Below, in pieces: positions 375-8,116 of a stretch of DNA of 8,116 bases. Origin of the DNA: Pseudomonadota bacterium (GTDB taxonomy: Bacteria > Myxococcota > UBA9042 > PHBI01); NCBI GenBank assembly GCA_005772945.1, contig SXIE01000135.1, forward strand, positions 1 to 8,116. The letters run 5' to 3'. Position 1 is the first letter of the stretch. Each line of letters begins with the position of its first letter. The notes beneath the pieces are model-generated. The model saw only the letters and a program-made list of their open reading frames with translations, ran no database searches and had not been told where the DNA came from. The position numbers and the translations under genes are program-made.

Positions 375-875
375 CTACTCCGGCGGCAGGTCGCGGGCCG
401 CTGCGAGCCACGCGGCGAACCGATCGAGCGCCGCTATGAACGCCGGCGCGTTGGCGAGCAGCTTGGCGACGTGTCGTCCGAGCTCGGACGGATCGAGCTC
501 GACGCAATAGGCGTTGCGAAAGAAGTGCCGGAAACGACGAAGCTCTTGAAGCCAGTCGCGGAGCGCCGTGTCGATGAGGGCGTCGCGCAGGCCCGGGATC
601 TCGAGCGCCATTTGGTCGATGAGCTGGCGATGTGAATCCGGCCCACTCGGGACGTCCTCGTCGAGGAGGCGCGCCACGCGCTCGAAGGCGGTCTCGACGG
701 CGGTATAGTAATGGTGCAAGTCGATGGCGACGAGCCCGAGGTCGCGTCGATCGGGCTCGGGAGCTGCGAGGCTCGGCGCGAGGCGGGCCAGCTCGGACGA
801 GAGCAACGCAAGCGCGCGGTGCTCCCGCTGGAGCTCGGCGAGGAGGCGTGTGAGACGTGTTCGCGCGCCGCTCAT
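375..875 (-). CDS. HepT-like HEPN-domain protein, toxin partner of the MntA-type nucleotidyltransferase
   Basis: 166 residues, mostly helical, resembling the HepT-like ribonuclease family. Known HepT toxins are HEPN-fold RNases that cleave RNA and are neutralised when the partner MNT enzyme adds AMP groups to a tyrosine of the RX4HXY motif. The N-terminal half carries HHYYTAVETAFERVAR (residues 54-69), matching the conserved helix around the LHxxYTxxExxFERIA pattern. The C-terminal half has RFRHFFRNAYCVELD, with R116, N121 and Y123 in the positions of RX4HXY. The histidine expected at 121 is therefore Asn; the arginine and the modifiable tyrosine are kept. The start at 875 was chosen because its ATG overlaps the MntA stop (ATGA) and matches family length. 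The same frame stays open upstream to 1079, but that extension is Arg/Gly/Pro-rich shadow of the MntA gene. The Asn may mean a weakened RNase or a subfamily variant. Confidence 0.83.
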   Translation of the reverse strand: MSGARTRLTRLLAELQREHRALALLSSELARLAPSLAAPEPDRRDLGLVAIDLHHYYTAVETAFERVARLLDEDVPSGPDSHRQLIDQMALEIPGLRDALIDTALRDWLQELRRFRHFFRNAYCVELDPSELGRHVAKLLANAPAFIAALDRFAAWLAAARDLPPE

Positions 876-1225
876 CGGAGTCGCACCCCGTCCGCCCGAA
901 TGTGCGTCGCGAAGTCGGCGCCGAGGGCTTCGAGGCGCAGCACGTCGACGGGCCGTCCCAGCGCGCGCTCCGCGGCCACGCCGAAGGCGAGGGCCTGCTC
1001 GAGGGCGAGACCGGCGACGCCCAGATCGACGTCGGACGCCGCTTGGAAGTCCCCCGAGGCCAGCGAGCCAAAGAGCCACACGGCAGCCTCGGCCGGAAGC
1101 GGCCAGGTGCCGAGGAACGCGTCGAGCCGGGCGCGCACCGCCAGGCCCAGCGCGCGATCGGCGCTACGGGCCGCGGCCCGGCGTGCGCGCATGGCGGCGG
1201 CAAGATCCTGGGGCCGGGTGGTCAT
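872..1225 (-). CDS. MntA-type minimal nucleotidyltransferase (antitoxin of a HepT/MntA pair)
   Basis: 117 residues forming a minimal DNA polymerase beta-like nucleotidyltransferase. The catalytic signature GSX10DXD is complete: G53 S54, then D65 and D67 in GSLASGDFQAASDVDL. A third carboxylate, D94 in RPVDVLRLEAL, sits at the expected next strand, so the enzyme looks active. Characterised MntA proteins are antitoxins that oligo-adenylylate the HepT toxin. The stop TGA (872-874) overlaps the HepT ATG (873-875), giving an ATGA junction that implies translational coupling at a fixed ratio. The ATG at 1225 has only a weak Shine-Dalgarno match; an in-frame Met at residue 12 is an alternative start. 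The 225 bp upstream to the GNAT stop hold a 13-bp direct repeat, a perfect palindrome and one copy of the 59-bp repeat, so a promoter must lie there, but I cannot assign one with confidence. Confidence 0.87.
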   Translation of the reverse strand: MTTRPQDLAAAMRARRAAARSADRALGLAVRARLDAFLGTWPLPAEAAVWLFGSLASGDFQAASDVDLGVAGLALEQALAFGVAAERALGRPVDVLRLEALGADFATHIRADGVRLR

Positions 1226-1347: not shown

Positions 1348-1406
1348 ATCGCGTTTAGTCGAAAACTAAACGCGTGGCGCGGCCGCGTCGGTCACGGCAG
1401 GTAGAA
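1348..1406. repeat. 59-bp direct repeat, left copy, with orphan gene terminus
   Basis: Aligns without gaps to 2351-2409 at an offset of exactly 1003 bp. The two copies match at 53 of 59 positions. Bases 1369-1406 and 2372-2409 are identical (38 bp), and all six differences fall in the inverted-repeat half. Read on the minus strand, 1406-1392 encodes F-Y-L-P-stop, the exact end of the giant lipoprotein gene, but here no such gene precedes it: the upstream sequence is the GNAT tail and 44 bp of unique DNA. I interpret this as the displaced original end of the lipoprotein gene after insertion of the RHH-GNAT module. Confidence 0.85.
1350..1374. promoter_or_regulatory. Perfect 10-bp inverted repeat inside left 59-bp repeat
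   Basis: CGCGTTTAGT (1350-1359) and ACTAAACGCG (1365-1374) are perfect reverse complements around a CGAAA spacer. The palindrome lies 125 bp upstream of the MntA start and downstream of the GNAT stop. It has no T-tract, so it is a poor intrinsic terminator. It could be an operator, a recombinase-binding core, or a hairpin. A further GACTA (1343-1347) pairs with TAGTC (1356-1360), so the same half-site motif recurs just outside. Confidence 0.6.
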
Positions 1407-1450
1407 TCGGTTGCGCGCGTGCTCGGCAAATCGCCCCAGGGCGGCGGCGA

Positions 1451-1975
1451 TCAATGCGGGGGCTCGGCGGCCGCTTTGATGTCCTGCATCATCAGGTACA
1501 CCGCCGTCGGTTGCGGGCGGGCATCCGACTGACCCTCGAGGGGCTCGAAGGCGGTGAAGCCGTACTTCGCGTAGAAGTCGATCGCGCCCGGCTTGGCATC
1601 GACGACGACGGCGCCGCAACCGACCTCGTCGGCCATCTTCGATGCGAGCTCGAGCACGAAGCGGAGGAGCTGTCCTCCAATCCCCTGCGACTGTGCCGAC
1701 TGGTCTACGGCGAGCCGTGCGAGCCCGAGCGCCGGCATCGGGTAGCGGGGTAGCGTCTTCCTTGCGCGCTCCGGCAGTTCCTCCATGTCCACGTGACGTG
1801 CAGCGACCGTGGCGAAGCCCAGGATGCGGCCCCGATGGACGGCGACGTACGTCACCCCGATGTGGTGACGAAACTGGTTCTGGCCGGCGTACCGGCGGAA
1901 GAACCGATCGAGCGCCTCGTCGCCGGACCGGAACGCCGAGCGGTCGTCACTCGGGCGGAGCGCCCTAATCTCCAT
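1451..1975 (-). CDS. GNAT-family acetyltransferase, toxin of an RHH-GNAT toxin-antitoxin pair
   Basis: 174 residues with a complete GNAT fold resembling the TacT/AtaT/KacT/ItaT toxin group. Those toxins acetylate the amino acid on charged tRNAs and so block translation. The N-terminal part has the group-typical pattern FRSGDEALDRFFRRYAGQNQ (residues 15-34). Motif A is RLAVDQSAQSQGIGGQLL (87-104), with the acetyl-CoA pyrophosphate loop Q-x-x-G-x-G at Q95-G100. FYAKYGF (134-140) supplies the usual catalytic tyrosine, Y135. Length is normal for the family and nothing is missing, so the toxin looks intact. The ATG at 1975 overlaps the antitoxin stop by 11 bp with no strong Shine-Dalgarno of its own, pointing to translational coupling. 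The target tRNA cannot be read from sequence. Confidence 0.9.
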   Translation of the reverse strand: MEIRALRPSDDRSAFRSGDEALDRFFRRYAGQNQFRHHIGVTYVAVHRGRILGFATVAARHVDMEELPERARKTLPRYPMPALGLARLAVDQSAQSQGIGGQLLRFVLELASKMADEVGCGAVVVDAKPGAIDFYAKYGFTAFEPLEGQSDARPQPTAVYLMMQDIKAAAEPPH

Positions 1976-2234
1976 CGCGCATCAGCTTGCGCAGCGCGGG
2001 AGTGGGATTCGGATTCTCGGCCTTGCGGAGCATCTCCTCGGCGGTTTTCCGCGAGACGACGATGCGCGGGTGGATGATGTACTCGGCCGGGATCTCGTCG
2101 AGAGCCTGCAGATGATGCAGCAACGCCTGTTCGACGAGGTGGCCCTTCTTGACCCCCGTCCGGCGGACGTGCTTCTCCATCCGCTCGCGCGTAGCCTCGG
2201 AGATCTGGGCCGAAATCTGGGTTTCCTTCGCCAT
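1965..2234 (-). CDS. Ribbon-helix-helix antitoxin of the RHH-GNAT pair
   Basis: 89 residues. The N-terminal half is a ribbon-helix-helix DNA-binding domain: a beta strand around ETQISAQIS (4-12), helix A about 13-26, a turn at TGVKKG, and helix B about 31-45. The C-terminal tail (46-89, with EYIIHPRIVVS and a charged end) is the region that in such antitoxins wraps the toxin. RHH antitoxins bind their own promoter and sequester the acetyltransferase. I chose the ATG at 2234 over the TTG two codons upstream because a GGGAG Shine-Dalgarno lies six bases before it and the family consensus begins there. It precedes and overlaps the toxin gene, the usual order for this type. The domain looks closer to CopG-like antitoxins than to DUF1778 ones, which is a judgement by eye. 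Confidence 0.87.
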   Translation of the reverse strand: MAKETQISAQISEATRERMEKHVRRTGVKKGHLVEQALLHHLQALDEIPAEYIIHPRIVVSRKTAEEMLRKAENPNPTPALRKLMRDGD

Positions 2235-2246
2235 GGACAACTCCCA

Positions 2247-2269
2247 GTAGAAAATCTACGGTTTTGTAG
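2247..2269. promoter_or_regulatory. Candidate RHH antitoxin operator (alternating GTAG/CTAC half-sites)
   Basis: GTAGA-AAA-TCTAC (2247-2259) is a perfect 5-bp inverted repeat. The CTAC at 2256-2259 also pairs with GTAG at 2266-2269, giving three alternating half-sites. The first palindrome covers the -10 element of the antitoxin promoter. Ribbon-helix-helix antitoxins commonly repress by binding short inverted repeats in this position, so this is the likely autoregulatory site. Binding is inferred, not shown. Confidence 0.6.
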
Positions 2270-2281
2270 CCGAGGGGTCAA
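2253..2281 (-). promoter_or_regulatory. Sigma-70-type promoter of the RHH-GNAT operon
   Basis: On the minus strand TTGACC (2281-2276) matches five of six bases of the -35 consensus. After a 17-bp spacer, TAGATT (2258-2253) matches four of six at -10. The AT-rich patch stands out in GC-rich surroundings. The expected start lies just upstream of the GGGAG ribosome-binding site and the ATG at 2234, giving a short leader. The promoter lies inside the 1003-bp repeat-bracketed unit, so the module carries its own expression signals. Confidence 0.7.
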
Positions 2282-2350
2282 GCCCGCGCTACAGGCTGCT
2301 GCGGCCGGGCCCTGAGTCTCGTCCCGGCGGATTGGGGCGCGGCCATCGGC

Positions 2351-2409
2351 ATTGCGTTTGGTCCAGACCTGAACGCGTGGCGCGGCCGCGTCGGTCACGG
2401 CAGGTAGAA
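2351..2409. repeat. 59-bp direct repeat, right copy, forming the 3' end of the lipoprotein gene
   Basis: Partner of 1348-1406. Bases 2395-2409 are the last four codons (F-Y-L-P) and the TGA of the giant lipoprotein. The rest is its immediate 3' flank, including a GC palindrome CGCGGCCGCG in the identical core. The inverted repeat found in the left copy is present but degraded here (about 2353-2377): several pairs are G-T wobbles and one is mismatched. It may act as a weak hairpin after the lipoprotein gene. Confidence 0.85.
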
Positions 2410-5400
2410 CCAGGCCTCGTTTGTCGTCCAGCTGTCGCGCGCGTAGATGCTGAACTCGCGCGTCGTGTAGTCGTCGATGTCGAAGTTCTGGTTCAAGACG
2501 CGAAGGACGCCGAGGCGCATGCGGCTCTGCGACGGAAGCGCGGTGATGCCGGCGGCGGTCTGGAGATCGGGGAGGTAGGCGGTCGTGACCGCGCCGTCGA
2601 CGATGAGGGTCCAGAGGGTGATCTGGCCTTCGGGGGTCAGATCGAGGCGCGTGTATTGGTTGGCGGGGCCGCCGTCCCAGGTCCAGCCGAAGGCGAGGCT
2701 GTCGAGGGATGCGGCGTGGAGCGGGGCCGTGACGATCGGGAAGTGGAGGAAGGGGCCGAGGATGAAGGCGGCGCTGCCGACGACGCGCACGCGGCCGTCC
2801 GGCTCGGCGAGGGCGCCGAAGGCCTTCGAGCGGTAGTCGTCGATGGGCTCGAGGTGGAGCGTCGCGGGGTCGGGGCCGACCAGGGCGGTGCCGTGATCGC
2901 CGACCACGACCAGGGTGCGGTCCGGGGTCTCGGTGAGGGCGGTGAGATCGTAGGGGGTCGAGGCGACGGGCAAGGGTGGCGTGGTCAGGCCGAGGTCGAG
3001 CTGGGCGAGCGAGGCGCCGAGGCCGACGAGGCCGACGAGGATCGTCCCGCGGTCGCCGACGACGACGAGCGTGCCGTCGGCGCGGACGAGCGCGGCGCGC
3101 AGGGTCTGGGTGGTGTCGGTCGGGATGCGGCGCCAGGTGCTATCGCGTCCGGCGTAGACGCGGCCGCCGGTGCCGAGCGCGAGGACCTCGCCGCCGGGGA
3201 GGGAGAGGAGCCCGCGGATAGCTTGCAGGGAGGGGCCGCCGACGATGCTCCAGCTGCGGTCGGCGAGGGACAGGCGCCGGAGGCGACTCGCGCCGGCGAC
3301 GTAGAGGGCGTCGTCCGTGAGGGCGGCCGCGACGAAGCTGTCGGTGTTGGCGGGGGTGGGCTGGCCCGAGGGGGCGGGGGGCCCCGAGGGGACGCTGGGG
3401 CCGGGGACCGCTTCCCAGGCGAGGCCGGTGAAGTGACGGATCGTCTCGTGGTCGCCGACGGCCCAGAGATCGATCGCAACGTCCGGAGCGGGCGGAGTGG
3501 CGGGGGCGTCGGCGACGCGGCCGACGATGGCGCGGAGGTGTTCTTGGGTGAAGCTCGGTTGGGGCGTCCAGCCGTTGCCGACGTGGAGGAGGATGAGGCC
3601 GCGCTCGCCGACCGCCCAGGCGCGCGTGCCGGTGGCGCCGGTGAAGGTGGGGGCAGGCGCGGCGAAGACGGCGTAGAGGTCGCGCTCGAGTTGGCTGCCC
3701 TCGAGGTGCCAGCCGCCGCCCGGGTCGCGCACCGGAAAGCGGTCCTCGACGATGCGCTGCACGTTCTGGACGAAGTTCAGGCTGCGTGGCTGGGCGCCGG
3801 CGACGTCCTTCGGGGCGAGCGTCGTGTAGAAGAAATACTGCGCGTCGTAGAGCTCGCGGTCGAGCGAGGCCAGCTCGTTCGGGAGCAGGTAGGTGTCGTC
3901 GCCGATCGGGACGGGCTTGCGCGAGAAGGGGACCGCGCCGTCGGCGCCGAGGTCGAGCGTGACCGCGATATTCGGCTCGGCAAGGCCGCTGGGCCAGACC
4001 GGGGGATCCATGAGCCGCACCCGAAAGCTGCGGCGCAGCGGGTGATCGAGCGTCACGTCGAGGTCCGTCTGGGTCGCGCCCGAAAGTGCGTAGACATGGC
4101 GCCGGACGCCGAAGGCGGTCGGGAGGAAGGTGCCGAGCGTGTCCTTGTAGCCGCCGAAACAATAGATCGCGAGATCGCCGAGGCGGCGCGAGTCGAGCTG
4201 GTAGGCGGCGTCGCCCGTGATGTCGACCCAGCCGGTCTCTTGGATCGGGTACTCGTAACCGAAGTCGCTGGTCGAGGTGACGTTGCAGTAGGCGGCCTTC
4301 TGGCCCGGGGAGGGCAGGCAGCGGAGCCCGGCCGAGGAGTTGCTGCACGCGTAACCGGCGGGGCAATCGTCGCTTGCGAGGCATGCCTGGGCGCAGAATT
4401 GGCCCTGATCGCCGACGGTGACACAAGCGAAGTCGGCGGCTGCCTCGGGCGCGGCATCGGGGCGCGCCGGGTCGTCGCAGCCGGGCCCGAGTGCGGGGTC
4501 GTCCTCACACGGCGCGCAGTGGCGCGAGTCCGCGATGGCGAGGGCGGCGCAGCTGCCGGGCGGGGCGACGACGTACTTGCCGAGGCCGAGGACGTGCCCG
4601 CTGAGCGTCGCGTTCGGGTACGGCGGGGGCGGGGTGACGCCGCCGTTGCCTTGGTCGGGGATCGGGTTCTGCTGGAGGACGATCGTGACGTTGGTCGCGT
4701 CGAAGGCGACGACCGAATAGGAAGTAAAGCCGGTCTTGCTGGCGGTGACGTCGAGCGGCCCGACGCGGCCCGGGGTCGAGAACGTGACCTGGCCGCGGTC
4801 GTCGGTGAGGCCTTGCCACTGCCACTCCGACGGGGGGGGCGAGGTGTCCGCGCGCGCGGGGGTTGCAAGGACGAACGCGCCCGCGACGGGGCCGTAGCCG
4901 TTCCCGCCGTAGACCGTGACGTTGAGCGTCTCGTCGATCGGCGGGCCCCAGGTGCCGCCGTAGCCCGAGCGCGGATCATAGACGGTGAGGGCGCGCGCGA
5001 GCGTCGCGGTGTGGGCGCCATCGCTGAGGACCGCGTCGTACGTCCCGACGTCGAGGCGCGGGCTGCTCACTGCGAGCTCGGCGGAGGAGACCCGGGCGAT
5101 GGGGGTGCAGGGGGCGCCACCGATCGTCAAGGTCGCGTCGGGACCGAAGCCCGCGCCGAAGACGCGCAGGTGCGTTCCGCCGGCCTGGGCCGCGGTCGGG
5201 GGCGTGATGAGCTGGAGGCTCGGCGTGTCGGCGGTGAAGTCGTAGCCCGCGGGAAGGCGCGCCGTGAGGCCCGACGAGCGGACGATGACGTCGGCGCTAC
5301 CGGGGGCGCCGGGGGGTGTGGTGGCCGTCAGGTGCTCGGCGTCGAGGACCGTGATGGCGGTCGCGGGGAGGGCGCCGATCTGGACGACCATGCCGGGCTC

Positions 5401-6840
5401 GAAGCCCTGGCCGGTGAGCGTCACCGCTTGGCCGCCGGCGAGGGGGCCGGTGGCCGGGGCGATTGCAGCGAGCTGCAAGCGTGGCGCGGGGTCGTAGTGG
5501 AAGGGGGTGGCGAGCTGGGTGTCGGCGGCGGCGGTGCGGACCGTAATGATGGCGTCGCCGTGGCCTGGCGGGGTGCGGACCTGGAGGGTGTCGGCGCCGC
5601 TCGCGGGCCCGTTGGGGTCGGCGAGAAGCTCGGCCGGGGCGTCGCCGAACGTCACGGCGAGGTCGCCGTAGGCGAGGCCGCGGCACGCGATCGTGACGAC
5701 CTCGCCGCCCGCCTCGGCGCCGTGATTCGGGACGGCGTGCGTGCAGGCGAGGACCATGGGATCGGCGAGGGGGTCGCGCCACTGAAAGGCGCGCGCGAGG
5801 GAGGCGACGCCCCAGCGCGTCACGATGCGCACGTCGGCCCATGCGCCCGCGAAGAGCGCGGAGTTCTCGCCCGGTGGCCCTGGTGGGGCGGCGGGCGAGA
5901 GGACCTCGAGCCAGCTTCCGTCGGGCGCGGCGCGGGTGATGGTCGCTGGTTGGTCGCTGCCTTGGGAGGCAAAGACGACGCTTGCGACGCCCTCGGAATC
6001 GGCCTCGAGCGCGTGGCCGATGAGCCGGACGGTCTCGCCGCCGGTGGCGCGGCCGACGATCGGGGCGAGCGCGCTGAGCGTGGGTGGGGCTCCGAACGTG
6101 AAGGCGTCGGCCGCGATGGCGACGCCGTTGGAGCTGACGACCTGGACGTCGGCGGGGCCGAAGGCGCCGGGCGGGAGGACGCCCGAGAGGCGGGTGTCGC
6201 TCTCGCGGAGTGGGGCCAGGACGGGGCGGCCGCCGACGAAGAGCGTGCCGTCGGGGGCGAAGCCGCGGCCTTCGACGGCGATGGGGATCCCGCCGTCGGT
6301 CGGGCCGCGCGCGGGGGTGACGGCGGTGATGGCGACGCCGCTGAAGTAGCGAAAGGCGGTGGGTAGGATCTGCGGGCGGCCGTCATCGCTATCGGGGTGG
6401 GCGACCGCCACGTCGACGCGCCCGGCGGGGTGCGGCGGGACGCGGGCGATGGCGGTCGTGGTGCTCGCGACGAAGACGAGCTCCGAGGGGGTCTCGTCGA
6501 AGTAGACGGCGAGGCCCTCGCGGAAGCCGTTGCCGCGAATGGTCACGTCATAGCCGCCGGCGACGTCGCCCTCGGCGGGGTCGAGCGCCGCGATGGCGAG
6601 GATGGCCGACGGGCTCGCGTCGGGGTTGGCGTGGGTCGGCTCCTCGGTCGGCAGGCCGGCGATGTCGCCGGGGAGGGATGTGTCGGGGCCGAGGTCGGGG
6701 CCTGGGTCGTTCGCCCGCGGGATGGGGAGGAGATCGGAGCAGCCTGCAGACGCCAGCGTGGCGAGGAGCAGCGCTGCGGCCCATCCTGCGCCCCGCTTCG
6801 TGACCCGCTTCACATGCGGCGCATCGGGGCGTGGCCCCAT
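2395..6840 (-). CDS. Giant IPT/TIG-repeat lipoprotein with Cys-rich segment and propeller-like C-terminus
   Basis: 1481 residues, function unknown. A cationic N-terminus and hydrophobic stretch WAAALLLATLASAGC end at C34, a candidate lipidation site. The lipobox is weak, since SAG precedes Cys. An Asp/Pro-rich linker follows. Six IPT/TIG-type Ig-like modules lie at about 80-166, 168-250, 252-356, 361-450, 452-537 and 539-622, recognisable by PxxGPxxGG and GxGF cores. A carboxypeptidase-regulatory-like beta module spans about 636-722. A Cys-rich segment (764-894, twelve Cys, including CPAGYAC) is followed by a mixed region. Seven short VG-x-x-G-type motifs then occur between 1074 and 1363. The architecture suggests an exposed binding or scaffold protein in the outer envelope. 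The ATG at 6840 overlaps the upstream HD stop (TGATG). A GTG at 6813 gives a more standard signal peptide and is a real alternative. The last codons lie in a duplicated repeat. Confidence 0.87.
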   Translation of the reverse strand: MGPRPDAPHVKRVTKRGAGWAAALLLATLASAGCSDLLPIPRANDPGPDLGPDTSLPGDIAGLPTEEPTHANPDASPSAILAIAALDPAEGDVAGGYDVTIRGNGFREGLAVYFDETPSELVFVASTTTAIARVPPHPAGRVDVAVAHPDSDDGRPQILPTAFRYFSGVAITAVTPARGPTDGGIPIAVEGRGFAPDGTLFVGGRPVLAPLRESDTRLSGVLPPGAFGPADVQVVSSNGVAIAADAFTFGAPPTLSALAPIVGRATGGETVRLIGHALEADSEGVASVVFASQGSDQPATITRAAPDGSWLEVLSPAAPPGPPGENSALFAGAWADVRIVTRWGVASLARAFQWRDPLADPMVLACTHAVPNHGAEAGGEVVTIACRGLAYGDLAVTFGDAPAELLADPNGPASGADTLQVRTPPGHGDAIITVRTAAADTQLATPFHYDPAPRLQLAAIAPATGPLAGGQAVTLTGQGFEPGMVVQIGALPATAITVLDAEHLTATTPPGAPGSADVIVRSSGLTARLPAGYDFTADTPSLQLITPPTAAQAGGTHLRVFGAGFGPDATLTIGGAPCTPIARVSSAELAVSSPRLDVGTYDAVLSDGAHTATLARALTVYDPRSGYGGTWGPPIDETLNVTVYGGNGYGPVAGAFVLATPARADTSPPPSEWQWQGLTDDRGQVTFSTPGRVGPLDVTASKTGFTSYSVVAFDATNVTIVLQQNPIPDQGNGGVTPPPPYPNATLSGHVLGLGKYVVAPPGSCAALAIADSRHCAPCEDDPALGPGCDDPARPDAAPEAAADFACVTVGDQGQFCAQACLASDDCPAGYACSNSSAGLRCLPSPGQKAAYCNVTSTSDFGYEYPIQETGWVDITGDAAYQLDSRRLGDLAIYCFGGYKDTLGTFLPTAFGVRRHVYALSGATQTDLDVTLDHPLRRSFRVRLMDPPVWPSGLAEPNIAVTLDLGADGAVPFSRKPVPIGDDTYLLPNELASLDRELYDAQYFFYTTLAPKDVAGAQPRSLNFVQNVQRIVEDRFPVRDPGGGWHLEGSQLERDLYAVFAAPAPTFTGATGTRAWAVGERGLILLHVGNGWTPQPSFTQEHLRAIVGRVADAPATPPAPDVAIDLWAVGDHETIRHFTGLAWEAVPGPSVPSGPPAPSGQPTPANTDSFVAAALTDDALYVAGASRLRRLSLADRSWSIVGGPSLQAIRGLLSLPGGEVLALGTGGRVYAGRDSTWRRIPTDTTQTLRAALVRADGTLVVVGDRGTILVGLVGLGASLAQLDLGLTTPPLPVASTPYDLTALTETPDRTLVVVGDHGTALVGPDPATLHLEPIDDYRSKAFGALAEPDGRVRVVGSAAFILGPFLHFPIVTAPLHAASLDSLAFGWTWDGGPANQYTRLDLTPEGQITLWTLIVDGAVTTAYLPDLQTAAGITALPSQSRMRLGVLRVLNQNFDIDDYTTREFSIYARDSWTTNEAWFYLP

Positions 6841-7487
6841 CAGGAGGTGACCCCAGGGGCCCCCGCGGTGGTCGCGGCGTGCGGCGTCGGGAGGTGGGCG
6901 AGGCGCTCGAGCTCGGCGACGTTGCGCTCGAGGAGGCGCGCGAGCGGGCCGTCGTCGAGGGCGCGGGCGCTGTCGACGAAGGCGCGATAGAACCAGAGCT
7001 GCTCGGCGCGGGCCGCGTTGAAGCGCTCGAAGGTGCGCGCGCCGTGCTCGTGCAGGTCGGCGATGGTGGTGCGGCAGTTGTGGAGCTTGTCGGCCATCGA
7101 CACGCGCCGCGTCGAGGCGTCGCAGCCAGCGAAGTGCGCGAGGTACTTCACCTTGCGCTCTTTCCAGGGCGCCTTCTGCGTGTCGTCCACGGCCAGCGAA
7201 TCGCTGCAGCCCTCGACGATCTGGGCGACGCGGTCGCCGAAGCGCAGCGCGATCGTGTCGAGGACGGGCTGGCCGCCCTGGTCCTCGGCCGCGTCGTGGA
7301 GGAGCCCCGCGATCGCCTCGTCCTCGTCGCCGCCGTGCTCGAGGACGATCCCCGCGACCGCCAGGAGGTGGCTCACGTAGGGAATCTCGGAGCCCTTGCG
7401 GATCTGCGCGCGATGAAGCTCGTGGGCGTAGGCGAGGGCATCGGCAAAGCGCGGCCCGAGGATCGGATTGTCGGTCGAGAGCGGCAT
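6840..7487 (-). CDS. Stand-alone HD hydrolase of the RelA/SpoT-hydrolase (small alarmone hydrolase, MESH1-like) type
   Basis: 215 residues, single domain, no synthetase half. The N-terminal HELHRAQIRKGSEIPYVSHL (residues 22-41) is the classic ppGpp-hydrolase entry motif with R30-K31-G32. The four expected metal ligands are H40, H64-D65 in GLLHDAAED, and D133 in MADKLHN; E68-D69 and N137 are also present. All core residues are there, so activity is plausible. Enzymes of this fold remove the 3' diphosphate of (p)ppGpp, and some serve as antitoxins to alarmone-type synthetase toxins. The substrate here could be another nucleotide. The start at 7487 follows the DGQHR stop by one base, with GAGGA about five bases upstream inside the preceding gene; the stop overlaps the lipoprotein ATG by one base. 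No partner synthetase is visible. Confidence 0.85.
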   Translation of the reverse strand: MPLSTDNPILGPRFADALAYAHELHRAQIRKGSEIPYVSHLLAVAGIVLEHGGDEDEAIAGLLHDAAEDQGGQPVLDTIALRFGDRVAQIVEGCSDSLAVDDTQKAPWKERKVKYLAHFAGCDASTRRVSMADKLHNCRTTIADLHEHGARTFERFNAARAEQLWFYRAFVDSARALDDGPLARLLERNVAELERLAHLPTPHAATTAGAPGVTS

Positions 7488-7488
7488 G

Positions 7489-8116
7489 TCAGTCCTCGCC
7501 TTTCGCGCTCTTGCGCGCGGGAATGTTCGCGATGCGGCCGAGCTCGCGGTGGATGCGGGAGACGCGCTCGACTTGGCCCTTGGCCGGAAAGCGCTCGTAG
7601 AACCCCTCGGCGCGGAAAGTGCGCACCTCTGTCCCCCACGGGGCGAGGCGGGCCTCCCAACGGGCGACGCGCCCGTCGACCGGGTCGCCGTCGAGCGCCG
7701 CGAGGTCCCCGCAGACGCGCAACATCGCCTTCAAAACGACGGGGCGGGTGACCATGAAACTCGCGTGGCCCCAGGCGTCGCCCCAGACGCGCGCGGCGGC
7801 CTTCAGGAAGTCGCGCACGACGTCGTAGAGGCGCTCGGCCTCGCGCGCGGTGGGCTTGCCGGCGGCGTCGCGCGTCCAGCGATGCACCTCGTTGAAGAGC
7901 TCCGCTTGCAGGATCCACTTCTCTTGTTTGCTGCGTCCGCCGAGGCGGTTGATGCGATAGCGGAGCGGGCTGTCGTGCTCCTCGTAGAGCTTCTGGACGA
8001 CGCGCGCGGCGAGCTTGCGGTCGGCGCCGGTCCACGACACGCGCTCATAGAGATCGATGAGGTGGCTCTTGTTGATGCGCGTCGGGGTCGAGTTGATCGT
8101 CACGAACATCTCGGTC
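7489..8116 (-). CDS. DGQHR/DndB-like domain protein, C-terminal part (5' end beyond window)
   Basis: The frame is open to the window edge. The Met at 8109 is internal: codons for T-E precede it, and the sequence begins mid-domain. The visible 208 or so residues open with MFVTINSTPTRINKSHLIDL, the conserved late strand-helix of DGQHR-type proteins. HDSPLRYRINRLGG and WILQAELFNEV follow, matching that family's SPL-x-x-x-I-x-x-L-G-G and I-x-Q-A-x-F blocks. The DGQHR motif itself would be upstream. The family includes DndB, the regulator of DNA phosphorothioation, and relatives in DNA-modification islands, but many members have no known role. The C-terminal half (about 90-206) is helical, rich in Trp and Arg, and not recognised further. 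It lies one base upstream of the HD hydrolase gene, so the two are surely co-transcribed. Family assignment is from remembered motifs only. Confidence 0.68.
   Translation of the reverse strand, partial: TEMFVTINSTPTRINKSHLIDLYERVSWTGADRKLAARVVQKLYEEHDSPLRYRINRLGGRSKQEKWILQAELFNEVHRWTRDAAGKPTAREAERLYDVVRDFLKAAARVWGDAWGHASFMVTRPVVLKAMLRVCGDLAALDGDPVDGRVARWEARLAPWGTEVRTFRAEGFYERFPAKGQVERVSRIHRELGRIANIPARKSAKGED

Follow-up and report, generated by a model that had tools for sequence, protein, structure and literature searches.

Within the window, by which we mean the whole 8,116-nt stretch of DNA analysed here, a compact toxin-antitoxin module lies between two direct repeats. Both of its genes are on the minus strand, with the antitoxin ORF (1965..2234, 89 aa) directly upstream of the GNAT toxin gene (1451..1975, 174 aa) and overlapping it by 11 bp. 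The toxin was recognised by Pfam and by PDB profile matches to the TacT/AtaT/KacT group (7e-23 to 4e-12), 4602 homologues were confirmed among 4882 candidates, and its predicted model (pLDDT 80.5) found its best fold match in TacT3 (E 4e-13). By sequence and predicted fold, this protein is related to the TacT/AtaT/KacT toxins. The antitoxin has 1258 homologues and is suspected to be of the RHH type. That class is only likely because the NCBIfam match is weak (RelB-like, 6e-4, below cut-off), Pfam gave no match and PDB profiles no significant one, and the model is poor (pLDDT 68), with no fold match at E 0.001. Upstream lies a promoter-like sequence, TTGACC-17-TAGATT (2253..2281, minus strand), which agrees with the consensus at 9 of 12 positions; a promoter scan found one such site for the module versus a mean of 0.1 in shuffled sequence. 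A perfect palindrome, GTAGAAAATCTAC (2247..2259), overlaps the -10 region and is a likely operator. The sequence-only reading had described an RHH-GNAT module with its own promoter; the GNAT gene and a promoter-like site were borne out, and the RHH half of the description depends on the weak match.

The direct repeats that frame the module occupy 1348..1406 and 2351..2409, at a spacing of 1003 bp, and their ends delimit a presumed inserted segment of 944 bp (1407..2350); all three features are oriented on the minus strand. Compared base by base, 53 of 59 positions are identical, including an ungapped 38-bp core at 1369-1406, and all six mismatches fall in 1350-1368. About 7e-13 exact 38-mer pairs would be expected by chance in the window. 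Repeats of this length, identity and core had been reported from the letters alone and were recovered at the same coordinates. The final codons of a lipoprotein gene, FYLP and stop, lie together with 3′ flank in the right copy, and the left, displaced copy contains the same codons with no lipoprotein ORF, as open reading frames and alignment confirmed for this earlier claim as well. The copies agree in all 12 duplicated coding bases ahead of the stop, and the six mismatches are confined to the 3′ flank.

A dispersed intergenic repeat, or the remnant of a paralogous lipoprotein gene, could in principle yield such a pair without any insertion, and the recurrence in related genomes of sequence adjoining the repeat at another locus (L079) would agree with this. 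Nonetheless, similarity in the left copy breaks off sharply just before the FYLP codons and the bracket pattern recurs at unrelated sites, so that we give this explanation scarcely any credence.

Folding of the left copy revealed a hairpin (1350..1374, minus strand; -17.1 kcal/mol, z -3.15) that is a candidate terminator of the toxin gene, though it has no T run and a terminator scan called no terminator there. A hairpin common to both copies was considered and rejected, as the strong fold occurs in the left copy only (right copy z +0.55). An Rfam search gave a single match, far below its gathering score. Adjoining the left repeat, positions 1260-1345 are GC-rich and, by eye, contain recurrent GGTTGGG/CGTTCGGGG-like words.

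The target gene (2395..6840, minus strand) encodes a 1481-aa TIG-domain lipoprotein, as judged from its ORF, a domain search and an alignment of homologues. This alignment comprises 22 rows, namely the window protein and 21 of the 46 other proteins found, and its consensus ends ...SWSTNEAxFxxP; the FYLP end of the lipoprotein is therefore native. Searches for relatives of the window lipoprotein at E up to 1e-20 gave partial TIG matches only, in 4 of 29 genomes. At 1e-60 one of 195 genomes matched, again partially, and the C-terminal part at 1e-30 matched none of 195. No relative of the window's own insertion site was found in the genomes searched with the lipoprotein.

Directly beyond the left repeat and outside the insert lies a second toxin-antitoxin pair (375-1225), consisting of an MntA-like nucleotidyltransferase gene (872..1225, minus strand; domain searches, with an NCBIfam match below cut-off) and a HepT-like (HEPN) gene assigned by Pfam (375..872, minus strand). 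Upstream of the lipoprotein gene, the stretch 6840-8109 contains an HD_4 (SpoT-like) gene and a DGQHR-domain ORF.

Brackets at related loci

A scan of genome contigs with the GNAT alignment supplied 80 loci, the best 80 of 142 confirmed, and the window brought the set to 81. Three loci with short or missing flanks (L029, L059 and L067) were left out, and 78 were analysed. A close bracket was defined as direct repeats at most 400 bp from the module edges with a score of at least 17. Twelve of the 78 loci (from the best 80 of 142 plus the window) had a close bracket, versus 15 of 1251 control windows of identical geometry taken at shifted positions on the same contigs (Fisher p 6e-9). With a single control window drawn per locus, 0.76 of 74 loci were bracketed on average and never more than 5. 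The twelve are the window, L011, L017, L036, L039, L048, L052, L056, L058, L065, L073 and L079, and their repeats measure 20-249 bp. L048, L052, L056 and L058 form one Desulfobacterales family with a repeat that recurs at several sites; since this terminal repeat is common to different sites, it belongs to the cassette. Leaving these four out, 8 of 74 loci are closely bracketed among the best 80 of 142 plus the window. The remaining 66 of the 78 (same selection) have no close bracket, which counts against the insertion reading. A wider-range test at score 18, on a set of 66 loci, found brackets at 14 of them versus 9 of 270 controls, with six of the nine control matches coming from L017, L020 and L021, all of which are repeat-rich.

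Comparing 18 repeats with one another, wider-spaced ones included (153 pairs), revealed clear similarity only within the Desulfobacterales group and between the tRNA-Ser pair L053 and L065. Related units that lie between unrelated repeats suggest that small selfish gene pairs may settle by duplicating their landing site. Relatives of the module occurred in 2 of 395 and 3 of 297 genomes in phylum samples, the centre genome being counted each time. A search of IMG/VR for GNAT relatives yielded 71 pattern matches, none of which was confirmed. Four related modules were present on three examined plasmid records (of 3046 with matches); three of the four had no bracket at a score of at least 13, and the fourth has a repeat and sits beside a tandem second module. 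The window module itself had one weak DNA match to plasmids.

The acidobacterial loci L020 (5338-8541) and L021 (5464-7508) contain many duplicated stretches, and in L021 the GNAT module lies, by eye, between copies of an apparent antitoxin gene start, beside a PIN gene. In L024 (5079-7384), nested repeats flank the module on either side with their order altered, which gives the impression of a bracketed unit that was later enclosed in a second bracket.

By raw count, the repeat enters the 3′ end of a gene or tRNA in six of the twelve close brackets, that of the window among them. The 29-bp repeat of L073 holds the stops of two convergent genes, with each copy serving one of them, and at L017 the 249-bp repeat comes from the terminal part of a thiamine pyrophosphate enzyme gene. 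At L011 the repeat takes in the final codons of a gene truncated by the edge of the contig. At L036 (3800-4135) it is made up of fragments from the final 80 bp of a ParE-family toxin gene, apparently a case of one toxin-antitoxin pair inserted at the end of another. The L065 repeat resembles a tRNA-Ser 3′ end by eye, and ARAGORN finds no tRNA at that position. Three repeats of the twelve lie just past a gene. At L039 the repeat lies 7 nt past the stop of an mlaC gene, and at L079 it follows a radical SAM gene and a terminator-like hairpin. The 91-bp outer repeat of L048 starts 14 nt past the stop of a DUF4143 gene and encloses (4225-6780) a nucleotidyltransferase gene together with a GNAT module that has inner repeats of its own; L048 is a compound insertion. 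The apparent tendency towards 3′ ends could result from selection against gene damage. Outside the twelve, L053 has an intact tRNA-Ser, the 3′ end of which is repeated 1.85 kb away (5298-7242); L053 has the appearance of an ordinary remnant of tRNA-Ser integration, and the sequence of L065 suggests the same.

Empty sites and the extent of the shared unit

Sister genomes supplied two empty sites. L109, with flanks 94-95% identical to those of L073, contains both L073 genes and a single site copy but lacks the module. Its single site is split mid-target by a palindromic, REP-like element of ∼116 bp (1381-1507), which counts against the insertion reading. L116, with flanks 92-93% identical to those of L039, contains both flanks, one site copy and no module. 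The two copies at L039 are identical to each other and differ from the site in L116, and it was therefore resident sequence that became duplicated. An origin of both copies from the resident target fits L039 and does not fit L017. In L087, a relative of L017, a single copy is present and the module is missing, but the neighbour is a different one. Six further attempts, for the window, L011, L017, L052, L053 and L079, gave no clean empty site: no close relative of L011 was found, and in L150, a relative of L079, the left flank runs into sequence found 5.6 kb farther along in L079.

Pairs of similar modules show how much sequence is held in common. In six pairs with 86-97% DNA identity (L038/L043, L013/L014, L017/L019, L025/L028, L035/L039 and L036/L075) the common stretch hardly extends past the promoter at one end and the stop codon at the other: it starts 38-87 bp ahead of the antitoxin gene and finishes within ∼40 bp of the toxin stop. 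Their flanks have short further similarity at most, except in L038/L043. That pair has 3 kb of left neighbourhood in common, ending ∼160 bp before the module in L043 and ∼2.7 kb before it in L038; because the common neighbourhood stops at unequal distances from the module, the junctions differ. The module genes of this pair have 13 third-position changes in 260 codons. In the 90%-identical flank, the two longest minus-strand frames, taken as coding, have 102 in 663 and 65 in 532. With fewer third-position changes than its flank, the module has been in common for a shorter time than its surroundings. There are counter-examples: the ∼1.4 kb common to L034 and L053 exceeds the bare module, similarity in the Desulfobacterales pairs takes in the end repeats too, and L003/L022 as well as L044/L057 have long flanking stretches in common.

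The last of these pairs, from Thiorhodococcus and Imhoffiella, is 97.8% identical for 6.5 kb and diverges near the toxin 3′ end (6500). Agreement of this extent as far as the toxin, followed by different sequence, is what might remain if larger islands had been trimmed by deletion to an undeletable toxin-antitoxin pair plus their outer repeats, and the ∼1.85 kb between the tRNA-Ser 3′ end copies of L053 could be read in the same way. We nevertheless see only a slim chance for trimmed islands as the explanation. At 12 of 78 loci (best 80 of 142 plus the window) no more than 400 bp separates the repeats from the module edges, neither L109 nor L116 shows a trace of an island, and the six module pairs share little beyond the bare unit.

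Possible routes of insertion

That insertion duplicated a gene end, as the sequence-only reading had held, is well supported for the family by the bracket enrichment, the two empty sites and the gene and tRNA 3′ ends within repeats, and is likely for the window, whose own insertion event we infer from its bracket alone. The same reading had attributed the event to a site-specific integrative cassette that uses attachment sites at gene 3′ ends, rebuilds the end that it enters and is served by a recombinase in trans. Gene and tRNA 3′ ends in several repeats would suit such a cassette, as would the cassette-owned terminal repeat at four Desulfobacterales loci. However, no common attachment core was found across the other sites in the 153 repeat pairs outside the Desulfobacterales group and the tRNA-Ser pair, and repeat length varies from 20 to 249 bp. 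The 8 window ORFs gave no recombinase match, in agreement with what had been seen before. Nor did 30 ORFs chosen from nine bracketed loci, although several of these ORFs had no Pfam match of any kind. Sixteen of the 18 repeats, that of the window included, lack the attC consensus GTTRRRY. Moreover, the gene beside the module at L017 ends in new codons, and the displaced codons are the native-looking ones. This part of the earlier proposal is therefore not supported, and we hold a site-specific cassette to be decidedly improbable.

L017 points in another direction. There, 16 of the 19 differences between copies fall at third codon positions, a bias which argues that the two copies diverged as working gene ends before they became neighbours, and hence that one of them would have been imported rather than made by simple target duplication. 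The codon pattern favours homologous recombination at L017, and the sequence-only reading, which had named homologous recombination as an alternative, gained support at this locus. Extended to the family, the idea is that a module linked to the gene end of a relative, on a circle or a linear fragment, recombined at the resident end and left two diverged copies. Two of three differences at L011 are also at third positions (by eye), and the window copies are 90% identical, both of which accord with import. The copies at L039, mutually identical yet different from that of the sister species, do not, and import leaves the first arrival of the module at unrelated sites unexplained. Homologous import thus seems to us an unlikely explanation, though one with some substance.

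We lean, by a little, towards the view that a bare two-gene toxin-antitoxin unit entered at the lipoprotein 3′ end and left a target duplication of 56-59 bp without an element-specific recombinase. On this insertion reading, the unit would have entered the 3′ end of the lipoprotein gene with duplication of the target, such that one copy keeps the gene whole and the other is the displaced original end. A fragment of ∼0.9-1.1 kb may have been captured by break repair or other illegitimate recombination, with no element-specific recombinase taking part. We propose that selection favours capture, since loss of a toxin-antitoxin source kills the cell, and that gene ends tolerate insertion because the duplication leaves the gene intact. 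The duplicates might later serve homologous recombination between relatives, as L017 suggests. We infer both the molecular recombination step and the role of addiction in capture.

A broader and more tentative idea is that GNAT toxin-antitoxin pairs are minimal selfish mobile genes. Their mobile unit would consist of no more than a promoter, an antitoxin and a toxin; in unrelated bacteria it would settle at gene 3′ ends with a target duplication of tens to hundreds of bp, need no recombinase of its own and owe the selection and retention of rare captures to addiction alone. We consider this possible rather than probable.

Relation to known systems

The means by which chromosomal toxin-antitoxin pairs move in the absence of a carrier has long been an open question, and target-duplication brackets would record individual insertions, matched by empty sites in sister species. 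If the insertion reading is true, addiction genes could be counted, like restriction-modification genes, as mobile elements themselves, and a laboratory strain would allow a direct test of how post-segregational killing is linked to gene capture.

The module resembles TacAT, AtaRT and KacAT in the sequence and predicted fold of the GNAT toxin and in the small, overlapping antitoxin gene upstream; it differs from them in an antitoxin that has no Pfam match and a weak RHH-like match. No bracket or mobility of TacAT, AtaRT or KacAT is described in the accessible parts of the literature examined. The dif modules of Acinetobacter are small non-autonomous cassettes, some with toxin-antitoxin genes, that lie between recombination sites and share one kind of Xer site. 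As far as partial accounts of dif modules go, a small toxin-antitoxin cassette between repeats is common to both systems, whereas the repeats described here vary from site to site. Integron gene cassettes are likewise small gene units, flanked by ∼60-bp repeats. Unlike these, the window repeat lacks the attC consensus and contains the coding end of a neighbour.

According to the available text of PMC3874152, some restriction-modification systems insert with long, variable target duplications on the order of 100 bp, a finding for which it cites Nobusato 2000 and Furuta 2010; the available portions of PMC1643837 and PMC3031569 describe the same phenomenon. In the sections available of PMC3874152, PMC2654758 and PMC3031569 there is no case of a toxin-antitoxin insertion with a long target duplication, and no report of one was found in the literature searched, which consisted mostly of titles and the beginnings of abstracts. 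Set against these partial accounts, the insertions considered here are like those of restriction-modification systems in their addictive genes, in having no mobile element attached, in their variable duplications and in being detected by the comparison of related genomes. They differ in that the genes are a type II toxin-antitoxin pair, the insert is ∼0.9-1.1 kb, and the site is often a gene 3′ end. We read the window and its relatives as insertion with long target duplication, a process known for restriction-modification genes and proposed here for a toxin-antitoxin pair.
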